From a virus: DNA of 64,000 nt. Each line of letters starts with the position of its first letter. Within the stretch, counting starts at the first letter, position 1. Below, piece by piece: positions 26,756 through 64,000 of this stretch. A program made the position numbers and the translations under genes. Below the pieces are notes generated by a model. The model was not told the DNA's origin, did not search any database, and saw nothing but the letters and a program-made list of their open reading frames with translations. The stretch covers positions 18,345-82,344 of the IMG/VR virus record IMGVR_UViG_3300032297_000199, one strand, 5' to 3'.

Positions 26756-26757
26756 AA

Positions 26758-30114: not shown

Positions 30115-30148
30115 TTTGCAATTCTCCCCATTAAATGGATTATTACAA

Positions 30149-30156
30149 CTATTTAG
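30149..30156 (-). promoter_or_regulatory. Late-type promoter for gp18
   Basis: CTAAATAG on the minus strand lies ~35 nt upstream of the gp18 ATG (30114); a GGGGAG Shine-Dalgarno is ~9 nt before the start. Leadered class. Confidence 0.5.
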
Positions 30157-30159
30157 TGC

Positions 30160-30193
30160 CAATGGTAAAAAATAGCGGTGTTAAATACCATTG
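30160..30193. repeat. 8-bp inverted repeat between divergent genes, with a plus-strand TAAATA
   Basis: CAATGGTA (30160-30167) is the exact reverse complement of TACCATTG (30186-30193), with an 18-nt loop. The plus-strand core TAAATA (30182-30187) overlaps the right arm and would serve the 30218 gene. The minus-strand gp18 promoter abuts the left arm. It could be an operator or a processing hairpin for the divergent pair. Confidence 0.45.
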
Positions 30194-30217
30194 AAAAGGG
30201 CAACAAAAAGGGCGGTT

Positions 30218-30553
30218 ATGAGAGATATTTGTAAAAAATGCAATTCTAAGCCAGTAGCAATTAATTATCGTAAAGGTGATCGTGTATTTTATAGGTCAAT
30301 GTGTGATCATTGTGCTAGAGGGTACAAAGAAACAAGGCCTCTATGGGCCTTGTCAGGGTATAAGAAAAAGACTGAATGTGACAAGTGCGGATTTACAAGC
30401 AAATTTCAAGAACAGTTTGATGTCTACTGTGTAGACGGAGATTTAACTAATAATAGATATGCTAATCTCAAAACTGTATGTGCTAACTGTCAACGAGTTC
30501 TTTATAAAGATAAAGTTAAGTGGAAACAGGGAGGTCTTCGACCAGATTTCTAA
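30218..30553 (+). CDS. Zinc-binding HNH-like protein lacking the catalytic histidine
   Basis: Start taken at ATG 30218 (111 residues), preceded by AAAAAGGG. Three Cys pairs are visible: CKKC, CDHC and CDKC, then a fourth in CANC. The end VYCVDGDLTNN then NLKTVCANCQ follows the HNH nuclease pattern (normally HHIDGDxxNN..NL..LC..CH), but the key His of the DG motif is replaced (YCVDG) and the last His is Gln. It is probably a structural Zn protein or an inactive HNH relative. Its 3' end overlaps the convergent dNMP kinase gene by 38 nt. Confidence 0.6.
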   Translation: MRDICKKCNSKPVAINYRKGDRVFYRSMCDHCARGYKETRPLWALSGYKKKTECDKCGFTSKFQEQFDVYCVDGDLTNNRYANLKTVCANCQRVLYKDKVKWKQGGLRPDF

Positions 30554-31163
30554 TCTGTGCAAACAGATCATCTATAGTTGTATTATTGTTTACAATGTGA
30601 TCAATGTCGCCACCTACCCATGCTGTTTCACTAGCGTGAATACCTAACTGCTCTAGTCGCCTGCGACCGATACTCCATCCAATTGTTTGAGGTCCTGAAT
30701 TAGCATTTACTGCGTCTTGGTACCATTCAGGATCTTCGCCTCTCTTTACACGAACTACAATACCGCCTGCGTTATGAATTGCTTTAATTTCATTAGGAAA
30801 ACGAACATCGCTAATGACAATATTATCAGCAGTTTTACGCATTTTATTTTCTACTGAAGCAATCCATATGTCGTCATGAAATCCTTTACGACAGACTTCA
30901 GTTCCCCATCGCTGTAAAACCCATCGAGGAGTTAGCTCTGGAATGCCCAATCGTGTCGCCCACCACTGATCTACTTGTTCTCGCCACTTACGGGCTTCGG
31001 CTGTACGACCCTCTAACATGATTCTATCCCAACCGAATACTGCGGCAACAGCATCTTTAAGGGTATTTGCAAATGAGTCTCGACGGAATTCGTGAAAGTT
31101 AACCAAATAATCTGCGGCAGTGTCTTTGCCAGAGCCAATAAAACCAACGAATCCAATAATCAT
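30516..31163 (-). CDS. 1: Deoxynucleoside monophosphate kinase gp1
   Basis: A 215-residue kinase close to T4 gp1 (241). The P-loop is GFIGSGKDT (7-15), an arginine-rich lid region and WVLQRWGTEVCR (~82-93) follow, and VISDVRFPNEI (~116-126) is the DxRF motif of the family. It phosphorylates dNMPs for phage DNA synthesis, complementing the deoxyribonucleotidase at 2715. An AGGAGA Shine-Dalgarno and a sigma70-like TTGACA promoter lie upstream, so early expression is plausible. Confidence 0.92.
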   Translation of the reverse strand: MIIGFVGFIGSGKDTAADYLVNFHEFRRDSFANTLKDAVAAVFGWDRIMLEGRTAEARKWREQVDQWWATRLGIPELTPRWVLQRWGTEVCRKGFHDDIWIASVENKMRKTADNIVISDVRFPNEIKAIHNAGGIVVRVKRGEDPEWYQDAVNANSGPQTIGWSIGRRRLEQLGIHASETAWVGGDIDHIVNNNTTIDDLFAQIRNLVEDLPVST

Positions 31164-31183
31164 AGCATCTCCTGGGATACTAT

Positions 31184-31212
31184 AATTTACTATAATTCTG
31201 TATAATTGTCAA
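31184..31212 (-). promoter_or_regulatory. Candidate sigma70-type promoter for gp1
   Basis: On the minus strand TTGACA (31212-31207) is followed by a 17-nt spacer and TAAATT (31189-31184, 4 of 6 match). The ATG of gp1 is ~20 nt further on with a good Shine-Dalgarno between. On the plus strand the same region contains three TATAATT copies at a 10-nt period. Confidence 0.4.
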
Positions 31213-31220
31213 TATTTTTA

Positions 31221-31979
31221 TTAGCCAATTACAAAAGTTAGTGGTTGTGCGCCATCTTTGTAATTGATTAGGTCTTGCTCTAGCATTTCCATTTCGGCTT
31301 TGCCTTCTGCTTTTAGAGCAGTACCATTTAAGCTAGTTCCACCTTGTGGACTAGCAATAGTATTAAACTTTTCACGAGCTTCACCTAGCATTAGTTTGCT
31401 AGTTGCAAGTGCGTAATCTCTAAGCCACTGACCGGCATAGTTGTCTTGAAACAGGATATAATCAGGTTTATGATTGTACATCCATAATAGCACATTTTCT
31501 TCACCTCTGGGGCGTTGTGTAATTCTTAACTTTTTAGTTGTTGGATTAAAATCAAAGTTAATAAAAGATCCGAACATTTTACCGACTTCTTTTTGGTAGC
31601 TAGCAAACATCATATATGTTGCTAGACCGCCCATGTTTGTAGAACTTAGCAAATATGTATTAGAGTATGCCAAGTTGAACGGCTCAAACAGTGTGCCGCC
31701 ATCGCCGCCGCCAGATCTACTACCAATACTTCGTCTAAAAACTTGTCTAACTTGCATAACTTCAGGAGCAAGAGTGTACTCGTTAACATCAGTTTGCAAT
31801 GTTAAGAAGCCGAAGCTTTCTTCTACACTGTTTTGACTGCGCTGACGATACTTTCGTAGTGCTCGGTCAATAGCTGTATTATAGTGTGCAGGGTCTAGTT
31901 CGACATCGACCATACCATCGCCCAGCATGGTTCTTACATACTCGACTACTTTTTGCTTTTCGGTTTCAAGTTCGTTCAT
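31221..31979 (-). CDS. 13: Neck protein gp13 (probable)
   Basis: Start taken at ATG 31979 (252 residues), 5 nt after a TAAATA core. The N-terminus TEKQKVVEYVRTMLGDGMVDVELDP is followed by a helical RALRKYRQRSQ, then VMQVRQVFRR and WMYNHKPDYILFQDNYAGQWLRDYALA, matching the gp13-like head-tail connector style of aquatic T4-like phages. gp14 is directly divergent, which supports the assignment. With gp14 it completes the neck where the tail attaches. Confidence 0.7.
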   Translation of the reverse strand: MNELETEKQKVVEYVRTMLGDGMVDVELDPAHYNTAIDRALRKYRQRSQNSVEESFGFLTLQTDVNEYTLAPEVMQVRQVFRRSIGSRSGGGDGGTLFEPFNLAYSNTYLLSSTNMGGLATYMMFASYQKEVGKMFGSFINFDFNPTTKKLRITQRPRGEENVLLWMYNHKPDYILFQDNYAGQWLRDYALATSKLMLGEAREKFNTIASPQGGTSLNGTALKAEGKAEMEMLEQDLINYKDGAQPLTFVIG

Positions 31980-31984
31980 ACAAT

Positions 31985-31999
31985 TATTTACCATAAATA
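31985..31999. promoter_or_regulatory. Divergent late promoters of gp13 and gp14
   Basis: Within the 27-nt gap, GGTAAATA on the minus strand ends 5 nt before the gp13 ATG (31979), and ATAAATA on the plus strand ends 7 nt before the gp14 ATG (32007). The two cores are almost back to back (ATTTACCATAAAT). No Shine-Dalgarno is present for either gene. Confidence 0.65.
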
Positions 32000-32006
32000 T
32001 AAGACT

Positions 32007-33209
32007 ATGCCAAGACTCTCTTTATACCGTCCCGAAAAGGGAAACGATTTCCGCTTCTTAGATCGTTCTATTAACGAGCAATTTCAAGTGGGCGGAACCG
32101 ACATTTTTGTCCACAAATACCTAGGACCAGTAGATCCTGCAGAAGGAGAAGCTACTCCCTCAACTCCAATTAATGGATCAGAAGTAGGAGAATTAGGTAT
32201 TCAAGACATACTGTTTATGGAAAACAGAGACCGTAAGTATGCTCCGGACATATACAGTGTTAGAGGCATTTATACAATGCAAGACTTAGACTTTAATCTA
32301 AGTCAATTTGGATTCTTTTTGGCCAACGATAATGTCATGATCACATTTCATCTAAGAAATTGCGTTGATACACTGGGCCGCAAGTTAATGGCGGGCGATG
32401 TATTAGAGCTTCCTCATTTAAAAGATGAATATGCGCTCGGCGATAGTATGCTGGCTCTTAAACGATTTTATGTAGTAACTGATGTTGCAAGAGCCGCAAC
32501 CGGATATAGTCAGACTTGGTATCCGCACTTAATTCGTGCCAAGTGTGAACCACTAATTGACAGTCAAGAATTTAAACAGATTCTTGACGGTGATGCAGGT
32601 GATGGCGAAAACAGTCTTAGAGATGTGCTGTCAATGTATCAAATGAATTTAAAAATTAACGATCAAATCCTTGCTCAGGCAGAAGCTGATGCTCCTACTA
32701 GCGGATATGATACTGCTCATTTCTATGTAATGCCGTTAAAAGAAGATGGTACATTAGACATTCAAGATACTAGTGACGAAACTAGAGATGCTAGCGAAGA
32801 CGACCATACGGTAGACGCTAGTTCTATCCTTGCTACACCTGATAAAAATGTCTATGTAGGATACTTAACAGGAGATGCAATACCTCCAAACGGTGCTCCT
32901 TACTCAGTTGGCGTAGAATTTCCAGCTCTTCCTACAAAAAATGCATATCATTTAAGAACAGACTACATGCCTAATAGGTTATTCAAATTTGATGGTAAGC
33001 GTTGGGTATTCATTGAAAAGAATATTAAGATGAATATGACTAACTTGCCTACAGATGGGGCGCCTGTTCCTAATAGTCAGTCTCAGCAATCATATGTTAC
33101 TAGCTTTGTTAATAATAGTACCACAGCAACAATTGCTGGCAAGGTCGTTGAAGAAAGACAGGCATTATCTAAAGTATTAAAGAAGAATAAAATTCAAGCT
33201 GATAATTAA
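32007..33209 (+). CDS. 14: Neck protein gp14
   Basis: Start taken at ATG 32007 (400 residues); earlier in-frame codons would overlap gp13. Conserved segments include GGTDIFVHKYLGP, GIQDILFMENRDRKY, MQDLDFNLSQFGFFLANDNV and LKRFYVVTDVARAA, which follow T4-like gp14. T4 gp14 has 256 residues, so a C-terminal extension of ~140 residues is present. It is acidic, with a short FKFDGKRWVF module seen in other virion proteins here. It helps form the neck and seals the head. Confidence 0.8.
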   Translation: MPRLSLYRPEKGNDFRFLDRSINEQFQVGGTDIFVHKYLGPVDPAEGEATPSTPINGSEVGELGIQDILFMENRDRKYAPDIYSVRGIYTMQDLDFNLSQFGFFLANDNVMITFHLRNCVDTLGRKLMAGDVLELPHLKDEYALGDSMLALKRFYVVTDVARAATGYSQTWYPHLIRAKCEPLIDSQEFKQILDGDAGDGENSLRDVLSMYQMNLKINDQILAQAEADAPTSGYDTAHFYVMPLKEDGTLDIQDTSDETRDASEDDHTVDASSILATPDKNVYVGYLTGDAIPPNGAPYSVGVEFPALPTKNAYHLRTDYMPNRLFKFDGKRWVFIEKNIKMNMTNLPTDGAPVPNSQSQQSYVTSFVNNSTTATIAGKVVEERQALSKVLKKNKIQADN

Positions 33210-33222
33210 AATGGAGGCTTAT

Positions 33223-33375
33223 ATGGACGATTTTGAAAACTATAAAAGATTCACATCTAAATGTAAATGCGGTTGCCCTGCACATTGTGAGCACGGTTGT
33301 AACAAATGCGAGTATTGCCCAGACTGCGAATGTTTGGAATGCCAGGAACTAGATAAAAGCAGAGGCTATAATTAA
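33223..33375 (+). CDS. 10-cysteine metallothionein-like miniprotein
   Basis: A 50-residue ORF starting at ATG 33223 with GGAGG 5 nt upstream; its TAA overlaps the gp15 ATG (TAATG). Residues 14-40 contain 10 cysteines and two histidines with CxC, CxxC and CxxxC spacing (CKCGCPAHC, CNKCEYCPDC, CECLEC). This density is typical of metallothioneins or multi-zinc miniproteins, and not of a chance ORF. It lies between gp14 and gp15, so it should be made late with the neck proteins. Role unknown: metal delivery, a virion zinc factor, or redox buffering are possible. Confidence 0.75.
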   Translation: MDDFENYKRFTSKCKCGCPAHCEHGCNKCEYCPDCECLECQELDKSRGYN

Positions 33376-49573: not shown

Positions 49574-52444
49574 TTATACGCCTGTAAACTGGATCCAATA
49601 ATAGTTCAATCCGTCTTTAACCCACTGATATTCAACGCCAATGCTTGGATCAATCCAAAAGTCTCCGATATTATTTGTAGCTGTTGTTGGAGGTGTTAAC
49701 GAAATGCTAACCTTAGGAGCATACACTCTTAATCCATTGCTATAAATGTCACCGCCGACATGCAATTCTTGTCCGATTCCAACTCCACCTCCGACTACTA
49801 CTGCTCCAGTAGTTGTAGATCCAGAAGTAGTAATTGAAGTAACTGCTAAATCACCAGTAAATGTTAAGTTACCATTAACTTGTAAATCACTTTCGATAAG
49901 AGTTAAACTACCGCTAGGGTTAAGTGTTAAGTTACCGCTAATTGTTCCGATAGTACCTGACGCAAATAATAAAGAACCAACTTGAATACTTGTTGGCTGC
50001 AAAATAGCAGCATTAACACCGTCACTGATTGTTAAACTTTGAATAGGTCCTAGTTTAAAGTTAGCAGTACCAAAGTCAACATTACCGGTTCTTTGATTAA
50101 TACGGAACTGGTTTCCAACTCTAAAGTCTCCTATGTGGTCAACAGTTTGATAATAAATCTTGGCTCTGTTTAACTGTATAATTTCTTGACTTTGTATAGC
50201 TAGAGTAGGATCGTTTGATAGATCTTTACCTGAACCAATATAGCTCATATTAAAGGCAATGAGTTTAAAATCAATGCCTTCTCCGTCTCCATACGCACCG
50301 TAATTGCCATATACAGCCGCACTACCAATACTTCTTAATTCTGCACCAAACTGTCTATAATCAGCTAGTGTAATTTGTTTAGAACTTGCTACTACTGTGT
50401 CGTCAAATGCTCCAGCAGTAGAATATACATTTTGTGTTCCTAGGCCGTCATCTGAAAAAACTGTACCGCCATCACCGCCGTCACAATGTAAAAGTAAAAC
50501 TGTACTTGCATCGCTGTCAAATGATTTTATAGGAGGGGTAAAAGTAGTTGTATATCTATTCACACTACTTACGCGAACTTCATCTACATAACCTTTTAGA
50601 TACTTAGAGGGATCTAACCCGTCACCACCAATAGTCAAACTGTCACCGTTGGTTATATTGGCTACACTAGAAGTAGTTGCTTCTAATAATCCGTTATAGA
50701 ATATTCTATTGTTGTTACTGGCATCTCTACTCATAGCAACATGATGCCATGTTCCCGTACTTATTGAAGTAGTACCTGTGAAGATAGTGGTACCGTGACG
50801 ACCAGTTAATCTATTGGCTGCATTTATCCATAGTCCAAATTCTGTAGAAGCTACCGAGCCTTTATCAAAAATTTGTCTTATTCTGCCACTATCTTCTAAG
50901 AAAATAAATGCTTCAAGTGTGTACGGACTAGTTTCAAACTGAATATCAGTATTGTTAACAACTTCTAACAAATCACCTGCTGTAGTAAATCGTGCAGAAC
51001 CAGTTCCATATTTTCTTTGGAAACTGCTAATAGTTGTATTTCCGTAGACATTAACAATTTTACCAGGACGGTCAGCAGCTTCTTCAAATCCGCTGGCTTT
51101 TCCTTGCAGATAAAGATAATCATTATCAACTTCGTCAATAACTCCGCTGGCCAGTACAGTACCAGTTGAACCAATATAATATAAATTATGCCCAACTACA
51201 TAAGTTCCAGTATTATTAGATACTTTTAATCTAGTACGGCCAGCACCGCCCCATCCTAGCGTACCGCTTTCTCCGTGGAATGCTTTATCTGCAAAGTAAG
51301 CAAATGTGTTTAATGCTTCTAACTTAACTCCATTGGTTAAGTAGATTGATGTTGCGCCTGGAGTGATGAATGTGGCTTCGTTCACCAACAAAGCCGGCTG
51401 AATTGAATTAGTTGTTATATTAGCACCGTCAGCATATATTCCACCACCTGCATCGTTGCTGTCATAACCGTAAGGATCGCTTGCTGTTCTAACACTACCA
51501 CGAGTTAAAACTGTAAATCTTTCAATGTATGCGCTTCGTAAAACAGTAGTTACTGTTGATGCATATTTAAAAGCATAACCAGGCTTATAAAAATTACCAA
51601 CTGTAAAGTCACTAATCGTAGTTCCGCCGTTTATTAAGAATGCTGTTTGTGTATTGGTCGCTGTAGTCGGTTCTACAAATACTTCACGAAGTCCTGCTCC
51701 ACGAATACTAACACCTTCTGGAATTAACAAAGGAAATTCTTCAGTATAGTGCCCCGGTTCAATAAAAATAGTATGGCCGTCGGACGCCTGAGCGAGGGCA
51801 TGTTTGATGGTTCTAAATGCGCTTTCAGTTCTTCTACCGTCATTTGCGTCATTGCCAGCGCCGTCAGATACAAACCAAACATGGTCGTCATAATTTAATA
51901 GATCGACACCATTAACGAATGCACTACCGTTAACAAATAAATTATTTAAAGTTGCAGTACTTAAAATATTAAGATTGTTACTGTAAATATCATTCCAGTA
52001 ATTTGTACCGTTACCTAATTTATATAAATTAGCTGTCTTAGGTAAGATGTCAGATACAACTTCTGCACCAATGTATAGTGTATCAGTTCCAGTTTGGTTA
52101 CCTAGTTGAATATTGCCATCGGCTGTAATGTTGCCAACAGCATGAATGTTTCCGCCTACAAAAACATCTTGAACTACTGCAAGGCCGCCATCTACAATAA
52201 GTGCGCCTGTAGTAGTTGAAGTAGAATTAGTTTGATTGCCCGCTGTTAATGTGCTTAATACATTTACGCTACCGAATGCTGTAACTGTTCCGGTAAACGC
52301 TGAACGGCCACCGATATTAATATTCTCAGTGACTCCTAGTCCGCCATAGACTACGGCTGCGCCGGTGATTGTGCTTGTTGATGTAGCTGTTAGCCCGTTT
52401 AAAACCACAAGGCCATTCTTAACTACAAAGTTACTTTGTGCCAT
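49574..52444 (-). CDS. Adhesin with beta-helix and LamG-type domain
   Basis: A 956-residue protein. Residues 20-110 hold TGALxVDGGL repeats. ~187-300 start a pectate-lyase-like parallel beta-helix (DDHVWFVSDGAGNDANDG, then FRTIKHALAQASDGHTIFI). ~478-655 are a LamG/concanavalin-type domain (YTLEAFIFLED, GTWHHVAMSRD, GYVDEVRVSSVNRY), typical of carbohydrate binding. The last ~100 residues have one more repeat and a tryptophan module (YQWVKDG). Glycan binding is inferred from the LamG fold. Four nt separate it from the 2003-residue gene. A late promoter and GGAAAGGG Shine-Dalgarno lie upstream. Confidence 0.8.
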   Translation of the reverse strand: MAQSNFVVKNGLVVLNGLTATSTSTITGAAVVYGGLGVTENINIGGRSAFTGTVTAFGSVNVLSTLTAGNQTNSTSTTTGALIVDGGLAVVQDVFVGGNIHAVGNITADGNIQLGNQTGTDTLYIGAEVVSDILPKTANLYKLGNGTNYWNDIYSNNLNILSTATLNNLFVNGSAFVNGVDLLNYDDHVWFVSDGAGNDANDGRRTESAFRTIKHALAQASDGHTIFIEPGHYTEEFPLLIPEGVSIRGAGLREVFVEPTTATNTQTAFLINGGTTISDFTVGNFYKPGYAFKYASTVTTVLRSAYIERFTVLTRGSVRTASDPYGYDSNDAGGGIYADGANITTNSIQPALLVNEATFITPGATSIYLTNGVKLEALNTFAYFADKAFHGESGTLGWGGAGRTRLKVSNNTGTYVVGHNLYYIGSTGTVLASGVIDEVDNDYLYLQGKASGFEEAADRPGKIVNVYGNTTISSFQRKYGTGSARFTTAGDLLEVVNNTDIQFETSPYTLEAFIFLEDSGRIRQIFDKGSVASTEFGLWINAANRLTGRHGTTIFTGTTSISTGTWHHVAMSRDASNNNRIFYNGLLEATTSSVANITNGDSLTIGGDGLDPSKYLKGYVDEVRVSSVNRYTTTFTPPIKSFDSDASTVLLLHCDGGDGGTVFSDDGLGTQNVYSTAGAFDDTVVASSKQITLADYRQFGAELRSIGSAAVYGNYGAYGDGEGIDFKLIAFNMSYIGSGKDLSNDPTLAIQSQEIIQLNRAKIYYQTVDHIGDFRVGNQFRINQRTGNVDFGTANFKLGPIQSLTISDGVNAAILQPTSIQVGSLLFASGTIGTISGNLTLNPSGSLTLIESDLQVNGNLTFTGDLAVTSITTSGSTTTGAVVVGGGVGIGQELHVGGDIYSNGLRVYAPKVSISLTPPTTATNNIGDFWIDPSIGVEYQWVKDGLNYYWIQFTGV

Positions 52445-52505: not shown

Positions 52506-52530
52506 AAAAAAGGACCTTTCGGTCCTTTTT
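52506..52530 (-). terminator. Intrinsic terminator after the 1094-residue adhesin
   Basis: AAAAAGGACC / GGTCCTTTTT is a 10-bp stem with a 4-nt loop, followed by Ts on the minus strand. Its right arm reaches the stop codon of the adhesin gene (52529-52531). Confidence 0.9.
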
Positions 52531-55500
52531 ATGATGTAATTGCTAGTCTTAGTGCTTGTACTGCCATTGCAGTAGGCGAGTAATTAGGTGTAAATGTGAC
52601 TTGTATTAGTCCACCGTTATATACGGCGTTAAATTCTCCTAACTCTCCAGTGTTAGTTACAATACCGTATTGGCTAATATAAGAACCATTAGTCTGTTCG
52701 CTACCATCGTAAGTTACCATGATTTCAACTACATGGAATTTGTTAGGAACAAATCCAGTATCAGTAATTTGTACTAGATATTTTGCTGTCCTAAAAGATC
52801 CGCCATTGAAAGAGTCAATTGTAATCTGTCCATTTGATACAATTCCTGTAGTACTAGTTGACGCAATTTGGTTATCAACTACCTGTACAGTAGCTCCTTT
52901 AATTGTCCCGCCGGCTGTAATGTTTCCACCAACTCCAACTCCGCCTACAACTTGTAATGCACCTGTGTTTGTTGTACCGTTGTTGATCGAACCTGAACCA
53001 AACTTAACTTGACCATTAGATACCCATAGCGCATATCTGTTAGTAGCACTTGCTCCGCCGATAACCGCTGGGGCATCTTCAACAAACAATGTAGCAATGT
53101 TTTGCCAAGTAGGATTTAAAGTACCAACTAAGTTAGGCTTATTAATACTATGAATAACAGCATTACCTGCATTTACTCCGGTGCTGTTTAAATCAGTGTA
53201 TGTTGATGTTGATAATTGTAAGCCAGGACCGTTAACAGTCCACTTGCCTGCTTGCACATCGCCAACTCGCTTGATACTTCCGCCAACCCATAGGCCTTCG
53301 CCAATACCAACTCCACCCCAAACTTCTAATGCGCCTGTACCAGTTGTACTTGTTACAGTATTTTGTGATAGGATGTGCGTAGATTTATCAATCCATACAT
53401 CACCCCCAATGCCTACACCACCTGCAACAGTTAAATCACCATATGCTGTACCAGTTGACACAGTACCGCTATTGATACTAGCAGTGTCTACATTGATTCT
53501 TCTGGCATTAATTGTTTCTAAAACGCCTAAACCACCTTGTACAGTCAACGCACCGCTTGTTCTATCAATACTAGGAGTAGTTCCGTCAACTTGTAAAGTA
53601 TTTTTTACAGTTAAGTTTGTACCGACTCTTGCACTTTGTCCAATATCTAGTGTTTGGCCGATGTGTACATCACCGCCAATACCAACGCCACCGTCAACAA
53701 CTAATGCACCATCAGTAGATGTAAAGTTGCTAGTAGTGCTATAAATTCTAGTATTTTCTTGGACATTTAGTGCGCCACCTATGCCTACGCCACCACCTAC
53801 TACTAATGCGCCGGAGTATGTGTTAGATGATACATCAGTTGCCCAAACATAAGCAGAACCTGTTGATACAAATGTACCACCGACATTTAAGTTCTTACCA
53901 ATACCAACACCACCGCCAACAATAACTGCACCTGTATCAGTACTTTCTGATTCAGTTTGATTGCTAAAGAAGAATGTTGCTGTAAACTCTCCACCAATGT
54001 TACTATTAACAGTACCAGTAGTAAGAATCTGTGCGCCTGCGATATAACCTGCTTCACTTACTAACAAATATTTGGCGCCAATACCACCATTAGGTACTTG
54101 GATAGTGTTGTCAGTAATTGTGGTTAGACTCCACGCACCGTTAATGTAAGTAGAAGTCGAGTTTGGACCAAAGTAGCTAGATCCTCCGACGCTAATGCCG
54201 CCTGCAACTTGTAAAGCTCCGGTTAACGCACTGTTAGAATCGTCTGTATTATGTAATACTAACTTGCCTGCTTCTAGTGTAGCCCAAGAACCAGTTGTGT
54301 ATAGTTGGCTAACATCTGTCTTACCATTAGCATCTGGAAGAATGTCAGTCTTTAAAATAAAGTGTTGGTTAGTTTGTTCAATACCAACAAATGCTCTGTA
54401 ATCAGTTAAAGTATTAACTGCGTTTTGGTAGTGAATTAACAAGCCCTTGTCATAGACATCAGGAACTTGAAGCATTGTGCTGTCAACACCACCACCAATT
54501 TCAATTACAGGGTCAACAATATATGTGTTTGTACTGTTAACAACAACTTGTGTGCCTTGGCCTAATAGTAATAAGTCACCTTTAATAACTGCATTACCGT
54601 CTACAGATAAATCTCGTCCAATAGCAACACCACCAGCAACAACTAAAGCGTTTGTAGCAGTAGTTCCTGTTGAACTATCAGTTGCGCCAATAATTAAATT
54701 CTTTGTAATTCCAACGCCGCCGGTGACAACTAAAGGTGCTGCACTTTCAGAAAGAGCTGCTGAATCGTCGTCTACAACAATGTTAAAGGCATGTAAAGTC
54801 TGACCAATACCAACACCACCTTCTACAACTAACGCTCCAGAGTATGTGTTAGATGCATCAGTGCCGTTAGCTAGAAAAACTTGTCCAGCAATGTATGCAG
54901 AACCAGCAACTCCTATACCACCATTATTTGTAACTTGTAAACTATTACCTGCAACAGATGTTAAGTTTGCATCTCCAGAAACAAAGATGCCGTTCCTAGC
55001 ATATAAATCTTGGCCTACACCTAGACCGCCCTGTATTGTTAGAGCACCTGTTGATGTACTAACTGAATTTTCTGTGCTTTGGAATGTACCTGTAGTTTGA
55101 CCAACAAATCGGCCTCCTACATATAAATTACCGGCAATTCCTGCGCCGCCGTTGGGAATTTGTAAGGCGCCAGAACCTGTACTAATAGAATTGGTATTAG
55201 TTAAAATTCTAACTTCGTTAGGAAACTCAGCTACGCCAACATTCATCGTGGCTCTAGTTATAATTTCACTATTTTCGATGTAGTAGGTACCGTAGAAATT
55301 ACCGCCACCTACACCATAAATTCCGTTGCCAAAACTCAAACCACCTACAACTTGTAATGCTTGAGATGAAGTGGTACTTGTACTACCTTTTGTCTCGCCA
55401 ATGTATACAGTACCTGAAGTAATGTAGATAGAATATGGATTAACAATTGAAAGATTTGTACTTGCTGTGCTAGGTGCGCCGCTAATAAACAAACTAGCAG

Positions 55501-55813
55501 CATTGGTTAATGTAACATTTGTGTTAGTTGTATCAACTAACGAACTACCGAAGTAATTAATTGATGTCCAAGGTATTGTACCTACACCAGCAATGTCAGT
55601 ATAAACAGAGTTGTTTAATGTTAAAGCTGCACCTTGGCTAAAATCTGTTCCGCTTACTGCGCCTACTCGCGAAATATGGCCTTGAACATTTAAATTGCCA
55701 CCTATGCCGGCGCCGCCAGCGACAATTAAAGCACCGGTTGCCGTCGAGTCTGACTGTGCAGTCCCTTCTGCAACTATGCCTTGCTTGACAATAAAATCTT
55801 TATTCAATGCCAT
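52529..55813 (-). CDS. Giant repeat adhesin, 1094 residues
   Basis: Starts MALNKDFIVKQGIVAEGT. By eye about 16 TGALxVxGGxGIGxxLxVGG units make up most of the protein, with one DPVIEIGGG...DKGLLIHY...AFVGIEQTNQHF domain like the two in the 2003-residue adhesin. The C-terminal ~110 residues (RTAKYLVQITD, KFHVVEIMVTYDG, SQYGIVTN) match the end of the 587-residue neighbour, so the two share a tip or trimerisation domain. A virion appendage is likely. Confidence 0.75.
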   Translation of the reverse strand: MALNKDFIVKQGIVAEGTAQSDSTATGALIVAGGAGIGGNLNVQGHISRVGAVSGTDFSQGAALTLNNSVYTDIAGVGTIPWTSINYFGSSLVDTTNTNVTLTNAASLFISGAPSTASTNLSIVNPYSIYITSGTVYIGETKGSTSTTSSQALQVVGGLSFGNGIYGVGGGNFYGTYYIENSEIITRATMNVGVAEFPNEVRILTNTNSISTGSGALQIPNGGAGIAGNLYVGGRFVGQTTGTFQSTENSVSTSTGALTIQGGLGVGQDLYARNGIFVSGDANLTSVAGNSLQVTNNGGIGVAGSAYIAGQVFLANGTDASNTYSGALVVEGGVGIGQTLHAFNIVVDDDSAALSESAAPLVVTGGVGITKNLIIGATDSSTGTTATNALVVAGGVAIGRDLSVDGNAVIKGDLLLLGQGTQVVVNSTNTYIVDPVIEIGGGVDSTMLQVPDVYDKGLLIHYQNAVNTLTDYRAFVGIEQTNQHFILKTDILPDANGKTDVSQLYTTGSWATLEAGKLVLHNTDDSNSALTGALQVAGGISVGGSSYFGPNSTSTYINGAWSLTTITDNTIQVPNGGIGAKYLLVSEAGYIAGAQILTTGTVNSNIGGEFTATFFFSNQTESESTDTGAVIVGGGVGIGKNLNVGGTFVSTGSAYVWATDVSSNTYSGALVVGGGVGIGGALNVQENTRIYSTTSNFTSTDGALVVDGGVGIGGDVHIGQTLDIGQSARVGTNLTVKNTLQVDGTTPSIDRTSGALTVQGGLGVLETINARRINVDTASINSGTVSTGTAYGDLTVAGGVGIGGDVWIDKSTHILSQNTVTSTTGTGALEVWGGVGIGEGLWVGGSIKRVGDVQAGKWTVNGPGLQLSTSTYTDLNSTGVNAGNAVIHSINKPNLVGTLNPTWQNIATLFVEDAPAVIGGASATNRYALWVSNGQVKFGSGSINNGTTNTGALQVVGGVGVGGNITAGGTIKGATVQVVDNQIASTSTTGIVSNGQITIDSFNGGSFRTAKYLVQITDTGFVPNKFHVVEIMVTYDGSEQTNGSYISQYGIVTNTGELGEFNAVYNGGLIQVTFTPNYSPTAMAVQALRLAITS

Positions 55814-55829
55814 TTCTTATTCCTTAGTA

Positions 55830-57593
55830 TTACCTAGTTATGCTGGTTCTTTGAACTTTTACAGTTTTGTTACTTGGGCTAGCAGCTCTAAACAATAACC
55901 TAACTAAGCCATTGCCCCCGACATTGAAATCAACATCAAAACTGCCATTTACTCCCCCAGTGGTGATTATACCGTATTCTGATTTGTAAACATTACCTGC
56001 ATTATCGTTTAACACTACAATCTCCACTACATGAAACTTTGCTGTAGGTCCGGTTCCGTCTGTTACCTGAACTAAACTCTTTGCAGTTCTGTAACTTAAG
56101 GCGGGCCAACTGTCAACTACAGTAGTACTCGTGTTATTTATGCTGGTACTGCGAGTAAACAGTTGGGCATCCCCGTATTGGATACTGCCGTTAACCTGTA
56201 ATTTATCTACAAGATTGTCTGTTTGTTGGCCAACTAGTAAATTTCCAGTAGCTTTAACTAAAATTAATCTATATTGATTGTTTCTGTCGTCATATAATGT
56301 TAAGCTACCTTCCCTTAAACTTGTTCCGCCTTGACCTGCTGCGTTATTTCCGCCTACTGCCCATGTATAACTTTGTCCGTTAGTAGCTGTGTTACGCATA
56401 CGGAAGAATACACTGTCAACTGCTACGCGACTTTCTAGTGTTAGGCTCTTACCGCCGTAAATATTACCGCCAATTCCAACTCCTCCTAGTACTTTTAAAG
56501 CACCGGTCATTGTACTAAATGATTCTTCTATGTTAGCTACATAAAAAGGACTTGAAATTTCACCGCCATTCCATAACGGTGTTTCTAACGGAACTCCGTC
56601 TACATAAACTGCTCTGGCATAAACTGCACCGTTAACTCCTAGTCCGCCAGCTACTTGTAATGCACCAGTAAATGTAGATGTTGCAGAAGTTGCATCCATT
56701 ACTGTTACAGTACCAGTGGACACTATTTGTCCTCCAATATTAACATTTCCGCCAATACCTGCTCCGCCGGCAACAATTAATGCACCAGTATCTGTACTAA
56801 TACTTGTTTCTGTGCTTAACAGTCTTAGTTTATTTGCTTGAAATGTTCCAGTAGAATATAAGTTTGTAAAATATCCTACATCGGGAATTCTAGTTCCAAT
56901 AGGACTTGAATCAATAGTCTTTGCAAATAGGTCTTGAGTTAACCCATCTCCTACAATTTGATACCAATATAACGGATCTATGTTTAATTTTTGGCTAGTT
57001 GTCCAGTCCGTAAAAAAATATCGGCCAGGACTAACAGTACCTGTACTAACTGCTACAATAGCACCAGCAAGTTCTTGTGTGGTATCTGCATCTTTTGCTC
57101 GTGCCCAAGTTCCGTTAAATCCAATACCTAAGAAAGCAACAGTATAGACACCGTTTTGTGCTGGGTTAGTTTGATTTTTAACTAGCACCCTATCGTCTAA
57201 TTTTAAATCAACTCCGCTAACTTTGTTAGGTGCTCCGCCAACTAGTGTAACATTAGATGTAGTTGCAACTCTAACAGGTCCTTTAAAGGCTGTGTTTGCT
57301 TCTAGCGCAGGAATTACAACTGGTCCGTTAATATATAATGTACCTGTTCCTTGAGGATTGATAATAATATTGCCGTTAGGGATAATACTCTGTAAAAAAG
57401 TTGCAGTATTACTAAAAGTAAAATTTAATTTACCTAAAGTAGTTTGATAAGTCGTTTGACTATTAATAGTTGAAATTGTATAACCAGTTCCAGTAGTAGG
57501 AGAATTACCTAAAGCAGCCTGTGTCTGATTAAGTGTAATGTAACCGCTAGTAGAACTGGGGTTTTTAACTTTTCCGCTTAAAAGCAATGCCAT
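55830..57593 (-). CDS. Adhesin/tail protein, 587 residues
   Basis: N-terminal ~130 residues are beta-rich. Residues ~130-235 carry a module frequent in phage tail proteins (DRVLVKNQTNPAQNGVY, then WARAKDADT). Three to four TGALxVxGGxGIGGN units follow (TGALIVAGGAGIGGNVNIGG type). The last ~110 residues (RTAKSLVQVTD, KFHVVEIVVLND, SEYGIITT) are homologous to the C-terminus of the 1094-residue adhesin. Likely a fibre or baseplate-associated subunit. One nt separates it from the giant gene upstream. Confidence 0.7.
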   Translation of the reverse strand: MALLLSGKVKNPSSTSGYITLNQTQAALGNSPTTGTGYTISTINSQTTYQTTLGKLNFTFSNTATFLQSIIPNGNIIINPQGTGTLYINGPVVIPALEANTAFKGPVRVATTSNVTLVGGAPNKVSGVDLKLDDRVLVKNQTNPAQNGVYTVAFLGIGFNGTWARAKDADTTQELAGAIVAVSTGTVSPGRYFFTDWTTSQKLNIDPLYWYQIVGDGLTQDLFAKTIDSSPIGTRIPDVGYFTNLYSTGTFQANKLRLLSTETSISTDTGALIVAGGAGIGGNVNIGGQIVSTGTVTVMDATSATSTFTGALQVAGGLGVNGAVYARAVYVDGVPLETPLWNGGEISSPFYVANIEESFSTMTGALKVLGGVGIGGNIYGGKSLTLESRVAVDSVFFRMRNTATNGQSYTWAVGGNNAAGQGGTSLREGSLTLYDDRNNQYRLILVKATGNLLVGQQTDNLVDKLQVNGSIQYGDAQLFTRSTSINNTSTTVVDSWPALSYRTAKSLVQVTDGTGPTAKFHVVEIVVLNDNAGNVYKSEYGIITTGGVNGSFDVDFNVGGNGLVRLLFRAASPSNKTVKVQRTSITR

Positions 57594-57594
57594 A

Positions 57595-60500
57595 TTATGA
57601 TCCTACCACTAAAATAAACGGTGTCATTGTAGCATACAAACTCTTCTCAAAAGTTCGTCCTGCTAATACACCTGTACTCTGGCTAATAACTAAAGTTGGA
57701 CCAATTCGGAAGTCACCATTTTGGTCAGTTGATGTAAAGAATACCTTACCATTGTTCAACTGAACAGTTTCTTTTCCTTGGTCTGGGTCAGCAGTACCAA
57801 CCTGAGGTAAAGCACCGTACTGAGTTCCTGCTCCAACATATTCGAACAAGTACCCTGAAGCTGAAATATAACTCTGTTGATAGAAGTTAACACTACATCC
57901 ATCGATAAACAATGTTGGATTTGTTACATTTTGTTCTAGTTTCACAATATGATATTGACCTTTTCTTGAGAAATAACCATTGCCTGTATTTACTGACCTG
58001 TAATTTCCGCCATACACAATATCAAAGATTACTGCATCAATAATTGCTCCTGTATCTCTATAACATTTATTTTTATCATAGTTATACTCACCTGTAAATG
58101 TTTGATCAATGTATGCAATAACTTCTGCTTTAACAAATTCCTTATTTGCCATAATCATATTATATGCATTAATTTTATTTGTACTAGGCGTTGAAGTCCC
58201 GTCAATTGGTTCTGGAGTTGGAGCAACGCTTGGTCCATTATTAATAATGTTTGTAATTAGATCAACGCCTGCGTATGCAAGTGTAGTTTCGCTGCTACTT
58301 GCAATTGGCAAATTAACAACTTGTCTTTGTTTTCTTTGATAAGTTTTATTAACTGGAGTTCCTTGAATAATATTACCAATAATTTGTCTAATAAATTCAT
58401 AGGCAGCAGTAGTCTGAGGAATTTCATTTTCAATAGCAGTTGATTCACCGTCAAAGCCGTAGTAATAAACTCCTGCATGTACACTTTGACGATTTCCGCC
58501 GTGTGTTAAATCAAATCCAATGCAATCAATTACATATCCAATATCTCTCTTACATTTAACATCATCAAATGCCCAACCATCATTGTCTAAACTAATTCTA
58601 GCAACAACTTCATCTTCGATGAATGTTTTGTTAGCAACAAGAATATCAAATGAATCTAACAATCCTGTATCAGTTGTAATAAGTCCGTTTGGTACAATAA
58701 TGTCACTTACTCCACCTGTGCCATTTTCTAATATGTTAATAATTACACTCATATTAGAGTTAAGTAGAGTAGCTGCTTCTTGAGTACCTGTAGTTAAATT
58801 AACAACTTGTGTGGTTACATTTCCTGTTGATACAGACACTGTTTCATTTAGCACAATTTTCTCTACTATTTCTTTCATGTAACTGAAAGCATTTGTAGTC
58901 GTAGTAATTTCATTACTTATATCGCCAGTGTATCCACTTTGATTCCAATATTGTAATCCTGCAAATGCGCTTTGCGTATTACTATCATATAAGATATCCA
59001 TTGCAATACTATCTAAGATTAGTCCAGTATCTCGTTTGCATTTTGTCTTATCGTATAAGAATCCAGTATTGAATGTATTATTAATATATGCAATAGTTTC
59101 TGCTACAATGAAAGACCTGTTTGCATTTAGTAGTTTAGCACCATTTAATGTGCTTAAAGTTGCACTAGGTACTAGTCCAATTGAGCTAGGTTCAGGAGCA
59201 ACAGTAGGACCATTGCTAATAATATTAGTAATGATATCAATGTTGTTTCTTACATTTTCAACTTCAGTATCAGTTCCTGCTAGATATGTATAATTTACAT
59301 AGTTAACAATTTCTTCTTGAATAAATTCTCTGTTTGCTGCAAGAATACTTGCCGCACGACTTACATTTGTAGAAGTAGACCTTGCTTGACCTACTGGTAA
59401 CTGTGGTTGAGACGCTGTAGGACCGTTGTAAATAATTCCTGTTATTAAATCTACCATGTTACCTAACAAGTTACTTTCACTAACTGTTGCGGTAGCCAAA
59501 TTCTTAACTTGTGCAATAGTATTATTTGGAGAAACAACCACAGTTTGATTTGTAACAATGTCTGATAAGATATCTTTCAGTCTGTTATATGCTGCAATTG
59601 TTTGATCTCTTTCTCCCGGGATAGCAGATGCAGTATCTGAGAATCCGTAATAGTACACGCCACTTTGAATAGCTTGTCTATTTCCGCCGTATAAAATATC
59701 AAATGCAACACTATCAATTATGTATCCAACATCTCGATAGCATTTATCTCTATCAAACTCAAATACATATTTGTTGTTAATGTATGCAACAACCTCTGCT
59801 TTAATAAACTCTTTGTTAGATAACAATAACTGTGTAGCATTTAATCTACCTTCATCAGTTGTTTTTGTTAAACTAATAGGTTCTACACTAGTAATAGTCT
59901 GAGGACCGTCGTTAATAATACTATTAATTAAATTAATTTCGTCTGCAACAAAATCAACTTCAGCAGGAGTCGATGATGCGTCATTAATAACCTGAGTCAC
60001 ACTGGTTTGTGCAGGATTAGTAATTAGCGTATTTGTAATAATTTTCTGTGCAATTGTCTTAATATAATTAAATGCATCAGTCGTCTGTGGAACTTCAGTA
60101 GGAATTGCACTCGAATTAGAATTAAACGAGTAATAATAAACACCGCTAGTTATAGCTTGTCTATTACCTCCATACAACAAATCAAATGCAACACTGTCTA
60201 ACATGTATCCAGCATCTCTCAAACATTTGGCTTGATCATAATCAAAGCCAATTGGTTTAATACTTTCGACATAAGCAACTACTTCAGCTTGAATATATTC
60301 TCTGTTTGCTACTAATAAATCATAAGCAGTTTGTACAGTAGAAGTTGAGCTGGCAGTAGTACCTTCTGTAACTATTAAATCTGATACGCCTGCTGTACCG
60401 TTCAACAATATATCTGTAATTATTGTAAAATCTGCGCTAATGGATGCTGTTTCAAATACAGTCGCAGTAGTTGTAAAGACTGTCTGAGTTGCAGTGCTTT

Positions 60501-63500
60501 GATATCGAGGACCACTAGTATCGTTAATTGCAATTTTTTGTGCTAACTGACTTAGATAATTAGTTGCACTAACTGTTACATTTAATTCAGATAAAATATC
60601 TCCGGTATATCCGTCTTGATTCCAGTATTGTAATCCAGCAAAAGTACTTTGACTCTTAGAAGCTGTCGGAAATGCTAAATCTAGTGCCATTGCTTCAACA
60701 ACAAGACCTGTATCACGAGCACATTTAACTGGATCGTAACTAAATCCTTTTGCTTCTTCTACATAAGCAAGTGTTTCTGCTTGCAGATATGCTTTGTTAG
60801 CCATTAATATATTGTAAGCATTTTGAGCATCAACTGAAGTTGCAGTTGTTCCGTTTGCAACAATAATATCACTTACTCCGGCTGTTCCGTTCGTCAAGAT
60901 ATTTGTAATAACTTTAAAATCTGCTCTCAACGCCAATGATTGTGTGGTAGTTGCAGAAGTTAAGTTTGTGATTTGACTCACTGTATTCTGAAATCTTACG
61001 ACCGTTGAAGTGTTGTTTAATACAACTTGTTGCGCCAATGAGCTTAGGTACTTAATTGCATTAGTAGTAGTAGTTAACTGGTTAGCAATGTCTCCTGTGT
61101 AGCCTGCTTGATTCCAGTATTGTAACCCGGAAAAATTACTTTGCGTATATCCGTTACCTTGAAATAGTAGGTCAGTGATAAACGAATCTACAATGATTCC
61201 GGTATCTCTGAAGCATTTGTCTTCGTTATAACTGCTCAAAGTAGACTGGACAACACTAGTTTGTTGAGGAATAATAATTTGCCCTGTTACAATATCACCT
61301 ACAATGTCTTTGATAAATTCATAGGCCGCAGTAGTTTGTGGGATTTCATTAGGAATAGCTGTACTATATTGATCAAAGCCGTAGTAGTACACGCCACTTT
61401 GAATAGCTTGTCTATTACCGCCATACAATAAATCATAACTTACACTATCTACCATGTAGCCAACATCTCTGTAGCACTTATTCTGGTCGTATTCAAATCC
61501 AGTAAATGTAGAATTAATGTATGCAATTACTTCGGCAGCAATAAAATCTCGGTTAGCTAATAATAAATCAAACGCTTTATCTACATTAGGGTCTGCACTT
61601 TCTGTTAAGCTAATAGGAGTAGGAGCCGCAGCAACACTTGGACCATTATTAATAATATTTGTAATTGTAGTAATAAATCGTTGTGCCTTAACAACTTCAG
61701 AAATAGTTGCAGGTCGCATGTATGTAACTTGGTCTGCTGTATTTCCTGGACTCTTTGTAATCGGAGTGCTCTGTAAAATGCTTGTTATAATAGAACTAAT
61801 ATGATTATATGCCGCAGTAGTCTGTGGAATTTCTCCAACAATTGCTGTTGAAGTTGAATTATACCCATAGTAGTATACACCACTTTGAATAGCTTGTCTA
61901 TTACCACCGTGTAACAAGTCAAACGCTACACTATCAATCATATATCGCATATCTCGGCGGCATTTTTCTTGATCATAATCGAACAATGCTGGACGAGTAG
62001 CTTCAATAGACGCAATAACTTCTTCAACCATGAAAGTTTTATTAGCTATCAATAAATTGTATGCCTTGCCAATATTTTCATCGTATGTTTTTTGTCCGTT
62101 AGGAATAATAATATCAGTTATTCCTTCAGTTCCGTTTTGTAATATATCTATGATGTATCCAAAACCAGTTCCTGCTTTGGCAGATTCAGTTGCAGTTGCG
62201 GGTTCTAACTCTAATTCTTGTGCGACTGCGTACTGATAACGAGTTCCTGTTGAATTAACAATAACTTGTTGTGCTAATTGTCCTAGATAGATAATAGCAT
62301 TTGTAGTGGTAGTTAATTCGCTTTGAATTGTGCCAACATATCCGTTTTGATTCCAGTACTGTATACCTGCAAAAGTACTTTGACTATTATTTGTAGTTGG
62401 GTACTTTAGGTCAAATGCAATCGCATCAACAATTAATTTTGTATCTCGTAAGCACTTAGCTTGATCGTATTGAAAGTCAGCAATAGAATTAACATAGGCT
62501 ATTGTTTCTGCCTGAATAAATTCTTTGTTAGCTTGCAATGCTGTGTATGCATTATTAGTACTAGTAGAAGAACTTGCAGTTAGACTATTAGGAATAATCC
62601 TATCTGTTACTCCCTCGGTCCCGTTATCAATAATATCAACAATTAAATTAAATTCAGAAATAACTCTATTTGAATCTGCTTCAGATGCTGAGGGAGTATC
62701 TAAATTCTGTGTTACTGAAGTTTGATATGTATAACCAACACTTTGATTTTTAACAATCTTGGAAGAAATATCTCTTACAAATTTAATTGCATTGGTTGTG
62801 GTAGTTAACTGTCCGCCAATTCCGTCAACATATCCGCTTTGGTTCCAGTATTGAACGCCAGCAAAAGTACTTTGGCTCGAAGTATTGAATAATAAATCTT
62901 GTGCCAATGCATCAACAATTAATCCTGTATCTCGAGCACATTTAACCGGATCGTAACTAAACTTACTAGGCCATATTGAATCAACATAAGCAACTGTTTC
63001 TGCTTGAATAAAGTTTCTATTCTTTTCAAGTAATTTCTTTGCAGATTTAATTTCGTTACTAGGCTGAATATATTGTCTAGCTGGAATAATTTCAGGAGCA
63101 CTATCAGGACCTTTCCTAACGATATCTGCAATAATATTAAATTTTTCTTGTAAACTATCTATTGCTACTTCACCGCCTGGGAAAGTAGGATCAATAGTTT
63201 GAGAATATATTGATTGATAAGTTCCAGTAATTAAACTATTAGCAACAATTTGTGTAGCTAAGTCTCTGGCATATAAAATTGCCAAACTAGTAGTTGTTTC
63301 TTCACCGGGAATTAAAGTAGTTTTTGTAGTCGTAGTTGAACTTAAACTTTCGTCAACTACACTAGAAAGCACTGTGTAATATGCATTTCCGCTAAAGAAT
63401 AAATTTAAGAAATTTGGATTTGTAGGATCGCTAACGCCATTTAAAATAGGTCTGCTTAAATGTACTGTTTGATATGTAACATCAACTACTTCTGTATCGT

Positions 63501-64000
63501 TATTTAGATACTTAAGACCGGGTGCAGGGCCTTCTTCTCCGTAAATATCACGAATGTTTAATGTATGACCAATTGCAATATTGCTTACATCAATGCCGCT
63601 AATAGTATAGCTACCTGTAGTAAGTGTTCCGGTATTAGAAGTAGCAGCTAGGTAACCAGGATACCCTTGTTCGTTAACAAAAGGAACACGCTTACCTTCG
63701 TAGTCAAGATAAGTGTCCGGCGGAACTACTTCCATAACTAATCCAATGTGAGGACGATTTGCAGTATCAGGTACAAATACTTCCATTCTTTGGTCTTGTG
63801 GCCAGTATCCTATTGGATAAAATTCACTATTTGGAATATTTGAAGGGTATGGAGGGTTATGAATAATACCAGAGAATTCATTAACTCCAATACCTTTAGC
63901 AACTAAACACAAATCACCGAAGTTAGCGTTGGAGTTGGTAATAGAAGCAATGCCGCCGTTCTCTACAATAACAGCTTCTGAACAGAAAATTGTAAACACA
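57595..64000 (-). CDS. Giant KCxRD-repeat virion protein (5' partial)
   Basis: At least 2134 residues; the frame is open through the window edge (the GTG at 63999 is internal), so the N-terminus is missing. Eleven KCxRD units occur about every 150-190 residues, of two types: type A continues with LQYWNQxGYxGD, type B with LLYGGNRQ...SGVYYYGF. From N to C the order is A A B B A A B B A B, then a divergent last unit. Each is followed by an AxTxxKAYxLLxANKxFIxAExxAYI-like helical stretch. The C-terminal ~130 residues (GQYHIVKLEQNVTNPT, YGALPQVGTAD) are a separate domain. Similar giants occur in aquatic T4-like phages; a long appendage is likely. Confidence 0.7.
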   Translation of the reverse strand, partial: VFTIFCSEAVIVENGGIASITNSNANFGDLCLVAKGIGVNEFSGIIHNPPYPSNIPNSEFYPIGYWPQDQRMEVFVPDTANRPHIGLVMEVVPPDTYLDYEGKRVPFVNEQGYPGYLAATSNTGTLTTGSYTISGIDVSNIAIGHTLNIRDIYGEEGPAPGLKYLNNDTEVVDVTYQTVHLSRPILNGVSDPTNPNFLNLFFSGNAYYTVLSSVVDESLSSTTTTKTTLIPGEETTTSLAILYARDLATQIVANSLITGTYQSIYSQTIDPTFPGGEVAIDSLQEKFNIIADIVRKGPDSAPEIIPARQYIQPSNEIKSAKKLLEKNRNFIQAETVAYVDSIWPSKFSYDPVKCARDTGLIVDALAQDLLFNTSSQSTFAGVQYWNQSGYVDGIGGQLTTTTNAIKFVRDISSKIVKNQSVGYTYQTSVTQNLDTPSASEADSNRVISEFNLIVDIIDNGTEGVTDRIIPNSLTASSSTSTNNAYTALQANKEFIQAETIAYVNSIADFQYDQAKCLRDTKLIVDAIAFDLKYPTTNNSQSTFAGIQYWNQNGYVGTIQSELTTTTNAIIYLGQLAQQVIVNSTGTRYQYAVAQELELEPATATESAKAGTGFGYIIDILQNGTEGITDIIIPNGQKTYDENIGKAYNLLIANKTFMVEEVIASIEATRPALFDYDQEKCRRDMRYMIDSVAFDLLHGGNRQAIQSGVYYYGYNSTSTAIVGEIPQTTAAYNHISSIITSILQSTPITKSPGNTADQVTYMRPATISEVVKAQRFITTITNIINNGPSVAAAPTPISLTESADPNVDKAFDLLLANRDFIAAEVIAYINSTFTGFEYDQNKCYRDVGYMVDSVSYDLLYGGNRQAIQSGVYYYGFDQYSTAIPNEIPQTTAAYEFIKDIVGDIVTGQIIIPQQTSVVQSTLSSYNEDKCFRDTGIIVDSFITDLLFQGNGYTQSNFSGLQYWNQAGYTGDIANQLTTTTNAIKYLSSLAQQVVLNNTSTVVRFQNTVSQITNLTSATTTQSLALRADFKVITNILTNGTAGVSDIIVANGTTATSVDAQNAYNILMANKAYLQAETLAYVEEAKGFSYDPVKCARDTGLVVEAMALDLAFPTASKSQSTFAGLQYWNQDGYTGDILSELNVTVSATNYLSQLAQKIAINDTSGPRYQSTATQTVFTTTATVFETASISADFTIITDILLNGTAGVSDLIVTEGTTASSTSTVQTAYDLLVANREYIQAEVVAYVESIKPIGFDYDQAKCLRDAGYMLDSVAFDLLYGGNRQAITSGVYYYSFNSNSSAIPTEVPQTTDAFNYIKTIAQKIITNTLITNPAQTSVTQVINDASSTPAEVDFVADEINLINSIINDGPQTITSVEPISLTKTTDEGRLNATQLLLSNKEFIKAEVVAYINNKYVFEFDRDKCYRDVGYIIDSVAFDILYGGNRQAIQSGVYYYGFSDTASAIPGERDQTIAAYNRLKDILSDIVTNQTVVVSPNNTIAQVKNLATATVSESNLLGNMVDLITGIIYNGPTASQPQLPVGQARSTSTNVSRAASILAANREFIQEEIVNYVNYTYLAGTDTEVENVRNNIDIITNIISNGPTVAPEPSSIGLVPSATLSTLNGAKLLNANRSFIVAETIAYINNTFNTGFLYDKTKCKRDTGLILDSIAMDILYDSNTQSAFAGLQYWNQSGYTGDISNEITTTTNAFSYMKEIVEKIVLNETVSVSTGNVTTQVVNLTTGTQEAATLLNSNMSVIINILENGTGGVSDIIVPNGLITTDTGLLDSFDILVANKTFIEDEVVARISLDNDGWAFDDVKCKRDIGYVIDCIGFDLTHGGNRQSVHAGVYYYGFDGESTAIENEIPQTTAAYEFIRQIIGNIIQGTPVNKTYQRKQRQVVNLPIASSSETTLAYAGVDLITNIINNGPSVAPTPEPIDGTSTPSTNKINAYNMIMANKEFVKAEVIAYIDQTFTGEYNYDKNKCYRDTGAIIDAVIFDIVYGGNYRSVNTGNGYFSRKGQYHIVKLEQNVTNPTLFIDGCSVNFYQQSYISASGYLFEYVGAGTQYGALPQVGTADPDQGKETVQLNNGKVFFTSTDQNGDFRIGPTLVISQSTGVLAGRTFEKSLYATMTPFILVVGS

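Follow-up and report, generated by a model that had tools for sequence, protein, structure and literature searches.

The window analyzed in this work is a 64,000-nucleotide stretch of viral DNA (positions 18,345 to 82,344 of the IMG/VR record IMGVR_UViG_3300032297_000199), at the end of which a gene for a giant repeat tail protein is located on the minus strand. The protein is built of units sharing a KCxRD motif, which fall into two classes (A and B), and the array that they form is most likely a structural rod or spacer. Its frame (57595-63999) comprises 2134 stop-free codons and, as the record (82,344 bases) stops at the window end, the protein is devoid of its N-terminus. In a PHROG search it matched the tail fibre and short tail fibre protein families phrog_5342 (E-value of 1.1e-89, 11 stretches) and phrog_4527 (1.2e-88, 10 stretches).

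Layout of the repeat array

The features of the protein are listed below; units 1 to 10 were placed by the motif, a hidden Markov model (HMM) match and typing.

57595..63999, minus strand: giant repeat tail protein (2134 codons), truncated at its 5' end by the contig boundary
63331..63999, minus strand: residues 1-223, part of an inter-array linker (in contig L006, preceded by the upstream array AABBA)
63190..63330, minus strand: residues 224-270, C-terminal unit fragment (HMM match, profile positions 115-161)
62698..63180, minus strand: unit 1, type A, KC at residue 353
62209..62691, minus strand: unit 2, type A, KC at 515
61720..62202, minus strand: unit 3, type B, KC at 679
61240..61713, minus strand: unit 4, type B, KC at 841
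60961..61236, minus strand: unit 5, type A, KC at 928, without the preceding half
60478..60960, minus strand: unit 6, type A, KC at 1092
59983..60471, minus strand: unit 7, type B, KC at 1258, centre of the AlphaFold model (residues 1174-1416)
59497..59976, minus strand: unit 8, type B, KC at 1419
59284..59493, minus strand: orphan NGP-type half-unit that lacks a KCxRD half (HMM match to profile positions 2-71)
58795..59280, minus strand: unit 9, type A, KC at 1653
58309..58794, minus strand: unit 10, type B, KC at 1815
57922..58302, minus strand: unit 11, divergent last unit, KC at 1978 (HMM match)
57604..57915, minus strand: C-terminal domain of about 100 residues (phrog_3442, residues 2029-2132), common to other phage tail proteins

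The original prediction, made from the letters of the DNA, had described eleven KCxRD units in the order AABBAABBAB followed by a divergent one, and this is borne out by the positions of the eleven motifs in the frame together with the typing (QYWNQ for A, GGNRQ..YYYG for B, and GGNYRSV..GYFSR for the last unit). It had also pointed to an N-terminal continuation outside the window, which was found in L006, a contig carrying the whole protein (frame 3531-13715, 3395 codons; 2106 of the 2134 window residues identical, i.e., 99%). There, five upstream units are added, and the complete order reads AABBA, linker, AABBAABB, orphan half, AB, and the divergent last unit. The nearest relatives of unit 11 elsewhere are last units too (79% identical), and in L006 the C-terminal domain additionally matches phrog_17885. 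A second, shorter KCxRD protein (L006:2-3127) is encoded immediately upstream of the large one, and the pair recurs in contigs L007, L028, L017, and L019.

The spacing between consecutive KCxRD motifs is uneven (162, 164, 162, 87, 164, 166, 161, 234, 162, and 163 residues). The values of 87 (units 4-5) and 234 (units 8-9) arise because a half-unit is lost before unit 5 and an extra half is present before unit 9. Such gains and losses recur, as spacings of 82-90 and 233-234 were found in L015, L016, L019, and the window. Tandem Repeats Finder reported no DNA-level tandem repeats for the window, and the array is therefore old.

Two unit classes and the inherited module

Within the window array, identity reaches 41-52% between A units and 41-57% between B units, and at most 36% between A and B. 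A scan of viral contigs yielded 38 loci with related proteins, and the HMM run on these loci and the window gave 551 unit matches (456 distinct in the aligned form). For the phylogeny, units without a clear A/B motif, near-duplicates (≥80%), and gappy rows were excluded, and the typing columns were left out when the tree of the 201 remaining units was built. On this tree there is a single A/B change, compared with at least 57 in each of 200 label shuffles, so the grouping that the original prediction had asked a unit phylogeny to confirm is recovered as a single split, in line with the identities. The sequences thus indicate a single separation of A and B that predates the divergence of the sampled contigs.

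The order of the units was tested on 16 less-alike proteins, one per group, with the groups hand-picked from the order strings. AABB occurred 18 times (shuffle mean 6.7, maximum 13 in 1000 shuffles), and runs of at least three units of one type 5 times (mean 18.4, minimum 9). For all 37 distinct order strings, which are not independent draws as the contigs are related by descent, the respective values were 27 (mean 11.6, maximum 23) and 9 (mean 31.5, minimum 19). AABB alternation is therefore a favoured order across contigs; a strict form of the period of four units, which had been raised tentatively at first, is not seen, since singlets (90 A and 78 B) outnumber doublets (53 A and 38 B) in the 37 strings.

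The KCxRD half of a unit and the half that follows it, which is of T or P type, match in class in 249 of 262 cases (A-T 125, A-P 12, B-P 124, B-T 1). The half preceding the KCxRD half shows no such match (B-T 90, B-P 40, A-P 77, A-T 42), and the opposite pairing reaches 167 of 249. Mutual information calculated by column for 221 unit pairs shows a switch at column 72, which lies in the loop that leads to KCxRD. It follows from the switch and from the match with the following half that the inherited module begins at the KCxRD helix; judged by these sequences, the class-carrying module extends from the loop just before that helix through the next ~160 residues.

Growth of the array by duplication of an AABB block, suggested earlier, has left no trace in the identities or nearest neighbours. 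Units lying four apart share 46, 47, 52, 57, and 46% identity, which is no closer than same-type pairs in general (means of 46% for A and 50% for B), and no window unit is matched as well within its own array as by a unit of some other contig; copying of AABB blocks is thus not visible.

Predicted fold and resemblance to phycobiliproteins

The AlphaFold model of residues 1174-1416 (119 related rows) is all-helical, with a predicted local distance difference test score (pLDDT) of 92.1 and a predicted template modelling score (pTM) of 0.85. Structural realignment of this single-unit model with 987 of the top 1000 PDB chains from a Foldseek search placed phycobiliproteins or their derivatives in all of the best 50 rows (Z-score 5.0-5.7), mostly at ~2-3 Å over 68-82 residues, with one row at 5.4 Å. 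Phycobiliproteins have a globin-like fold composed of helices X, Y, A, B, E, F', F, G, and H. The superposed part runs from the helix pair in front of KCxRD through the KCxRD helix to the short one after it. These four correspond to phycobiliprotein helices A, B, E, and F'; the remainder does not superpose. Strong Foldseek matches among viral models were restricted to other phage tail proteins.

With the window protein, the Pfam family PF00502 (phycobilisome protein) scored 34 bits (cut-off 22.2), a sum over the repeats in which no stretch passes 0.1, and in the genome scan its best score of 16.7 bits was under the cut-off. Among 74 single units, it matched 18 at E ≤ 1, with 2.1e-4 as the best value, and the next family matched 3. 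A profile of nine window units found phycocyanin as the best PDB match (E-value of 0.09), and a profile of 120 longer rows gave phycocyanin at 0.0033, beside chance-looking matches to other families. When a profile of 74 trimmed rows was searched against all PDB chains, 37 of the 42 rows at E ≤ 10 were phycobiliproteins, ranked first (best E-value of 3.6e-4); the remaining five were two smURFP chains (an allophycocyanin derivative), two antibody chains, and one neuraminidase. In hhalign, the units aligned with phycobiliproteins over 99 columns with a score of 43.8 and a probability of 91, Cys on Cys, while 30 column shuffles gave probabilities of at most 0.76 and a best score of 16.0. The unit was found in 0 of 291 cyanobacterial genomes with profile A1, a search that had no positive control and hence shows little.

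In 411 distinct units, C, R, and D of the motif are conserved in 99, 99, and 100%, respectively, D at +14 and Y at +30 are conserved likewise, and all 11 window units have the C-x-R-D arrangement (Cys with Arg at +2 and Asp at +3). In the alignments and the model, the KCxRD helix lines up with the bilin-attachment helix of phycobiliproteins, and C-x-R-D appears to fall where their bilin-binding Cys sits, in a site formed by Cys, Arg, and Asp.

Isolated phages carrying the unit are almost exclusively cyanophages. With one unit as the query, 242 of 243 records were cyanophages by name, the other being a 'Marine' record; with the whole window protein, the figure was 256 of 265, plus eight 'Marine' records and one 'uncultured'. 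One 'Marine' record is a single-cell virus filed in Kyanoviridae. The unit-bearing cyanophage proteins are annotated as baseplate wedge (gp7), short tail fibre, or tail fibre-like, and those of P-HM1 and DSL-LC03, named gp7 baseplate wedge or wedge initiator, are encoded beside other wedge genes. In 30 loci from a profile search and four earlier ones (among more places matched), C-x-R-D is missing from 29 of 63 cyanophage unit pieces, and at least three of these 29 end before the motif. In the 60 aligned pieces, C is kept in 92% and D in 97%, and Arg is often lost.

The window phage itself, judged by its sequence, is not an obvious cyanophage, as its terminase, helicase, and sheath are nearest to those of jumbo phages of Pseudomonas, Agrobacterium, and Sinorhizobium. 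Other tail genes lie on the same strand and in the same region, i.e., those for a baseplate wedge subunit (49574-52444, phrog_13163) and the tail sheath (26758-30162). The wedge protein (956 residues) contains a laminin-G/concanavalin-like lectin domain (PF13385, E-value of 1.2e-16), which may bind host glycans. The sheath comprises 1134 residues, of which the nearest phage sheaths cover ~60%, and this partial alignment suggests a large extra domain. Between the wedge and the giant protein genes (52529-57593), two tail proteins have recurring 'TGALxVxGGxGIGxxLxVGG'-like stretches, another repeat system beside the helical one.

Role of the array and comparison with known systems

We lean, with some reserve, towards reading the protein as a structural component of the tail of a jumbo-type myophage, belonging to an appendage or associated with the baseplate, in which two-class modules of ~162 residues would serve as a rod or spacer. 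Each unit is predicted to be an all-helical domain with a phycobiliprotein-like core, of which C, R, and D would be kept as the packing core. The A/B alternation would provide two types of interface, and the number and order of modules would tune length and shape, with the whole array setting the distance of a tail fibre or a baseplate part. Neighbouring units probably pair by strands, as in the AlphaFold model of a four-unit AABB segment each unit has one short strand that the single-unit model lacks. The gp7 and wedge annotations in P-HM1 and DSL-LC03 suit a rod or spacer role.

Several points weigh against this reading. The spacer role is deduced from the repetition, and both the rod shape and the strand pairing were read from the secondary-structure string of the four-unit model. 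The modelling of an AABB segment, advised in the original prediction, gave good local confidence (mean pLDDT of 84.3); as regards a structural period, the pTM of 0.57 leaves the long-range arrangement of the units unsettled. As for the core of the unit, a Foldseek search of the single-unit model against the PDB returned nothing at E ≤ 0.001, with phycoerythrins at ranks 6-8, and Z-scores of 5-6 are weak for helical proteins according to the tool's own warning. Realignment of the four-unit model placed no phycobiliproteins in 50 rows, although the tool warns about models of more than 400 residues. Moreover, masking of C, R, and D lowered the hhalign score to 18.4, little over the best shuffle, and the probability from 91 to 1.7.

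The last two results, the restriction of the superposition to the A-B-E-F' part, and the loss of Arg from distant cyanophage units favour an account in which the likeness reflects convergence on a short C-x-R-D helix start within a common helical arrangement. The fold would then be an unrelated phage one, with the rod function unchanged, and we consider this only a little less probable than its opposite. It has to contend with the unchanged register of the masked alignment over 98 columns, with the first places taken by phycobiliproteins in the PDB-wide profile search, and with the excess of PF00502 matches to single units over those of the next family. Furthermore, a masked HMMER profile still favours phycobiliproteins: for 179 of them, which are mutually related, the area under the curve was 0.958 against 220 other cyanobacterial frames, 0.784 against reversed copies, and 0.885 against shuffled ones. 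Much of the phycobiliprotein signal is the C/R/D motif itself, and part of it survives masking; we put common descent of the units and phycobiliproteins at about even chances. A separate objection concerns the order of the units, since AABB may simply reflect the common ancestry of a few related phages, without structural meaning. Position-specific units common to related contigs (e.g., L015, L016, and L019) and the frequent singlets speak for this, yet the order strings differ widely, and the AABB excess and the depletion of runs of three hold in the 16 less-alike proteins, which makes this explanation possible but rather doubtful.

Two further proposals concern the conserved Cys. Its 99% conservation could reflect disulfides or metal binding along the appendage, as first suggested; however, each unit has a single conserved Cys with no conserved second Cys or His beside it, a few cyanophage units replace it, and phages are assembled in a reducing cytoplasm. 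The data thus lend no evidence to a crosslink or metal ligand, which we regard as highly unlikely, and the apparent match with the bilin-attachment position is the better lead. The unit Cys might then, in marine cyanophages at least, bear a bilin or a different tetrapyrrole, attached by a phage CpeT-type lyase. The placement of Cys, Arg, and Asp as in the bilin site would agree with this, as would the distribution of CpeT. In profile searches of 24 phage records of our choice, the unit was present in 15 and CpeT in 13, all of them among these 15; within 18 T4-like cyanophages the one-sided p-value is 0.012 if the records are independent. Clade can explain this co-occurrence, since CpeT is also absent from the three T4-like cyanophages that have no unit. 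In S-WAM2, Syn1, S-PM2, and S-RSM4, full-length CpeT is encoded just upstream of the unit gene on the same strand (~1.3 to 3.3 kb from the nearest listed unit), whereas in Syn19 and P-HM1 it does not adjoin the unit gene. In Syn1 (19938-33236, L291), cpeT, tRNA-Leu, and a 2OG-Fe(II) oxygenase gene directly precede the unit-bearing tail fibre gene (~4017 residues). Bilin reductase (PF05996; 6 of the 24 records) was rejected as a companion of the unit, as it is present in two unit-less records (P-SSM2 and S-SSM7). IMG/VR contigs sampled by terminase were dropped as a larger sample for the unit and CpeT, as only 2 of 80 returned exceeded 100 kb. PMC3037559 describes the part played by phage bilin genes and CpeT as unresolved, and help to host light harvesting is suggested in PMC10452541 and PMC10665884.

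Against a pigment, psbA and CpeT were each found in 0 of 38 related unit-bearing records (many of them fragments, with the window's own record outside both searches) and NblA in 0 of 18, the window's own included. The core genes of the window phage sit near those of jumbo phages of Pseudomonas, Agrobacterium, and Sinorhizobium, yet Cys-Arg-Asp is strictest in its group, and C-x-R-D is eroded in cyanophages, CpeT-bearing ones included. On account of the core genes, the missing marker genes, and this erosion, a bilin function was rejected as the main reading for the window phage, in which a present-day pigment is unlikely, and the proposal as a whole is very improbable. Equally little credence is due to a bolder version, in which the tail domains of cyanophages and jumbo phages descend from phycobiliproteins and, in cyanophages where a CpeT-type lyase gene adjoins, some still carry a bilin, the lyase acting on the phage's own tail.

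For the structural rod or spacer, which we thus prefer, the A/B arrays offer a natural test of how module order sets the length of a tail protein. As the unit occurs widely in tail proteins of marine cyanophages that bear no annotation beyond structural or hypothetical, assigning its fold would account for a portion of those virions. If it is true, descent from an antenna protein would be an uncommon instance in which a photosynthetic fold of the host became virion structure, and would give a concrete candidate for the target of cyanophage CpeT.

Neither a phycobiliprotein-like phage tail domain nor an A/B module system was found in print in literature searches limited to open-licence PMC papers. 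The families phrog_5342 and phrog_4527 match the window protein over many stretches, but they are whole-protein families that define no domain, A/B classes, or fold. By profile, the same unit is present in proteins of T4-like cyanophages (P-HM1 gp7 wedge, Syn1 short tail fibre, and S-WAM2 tail fibre-like), where, unlike in the window, the units are fewer, scattered, and divergent, often lack Arg, and form no AABB array that we could see. With phycobiliproteins (phycocyanin, allophycocyanin, and phycoerythrin), the units share the C-x-R-D helix, the same spacing to G-G (+18/+19), and the preceding helix pair. They differ in that phycobiliproteins have a longer loop before Cys (9 residues) and superpose over only part of the fold, whereas the window units stand in tandem in one phage tail chain. 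The protein family is thus known to PHROGs without a domain description, and the A/B module system and the phycobiliprotein likeness, as read from the sequences, would be the new part.

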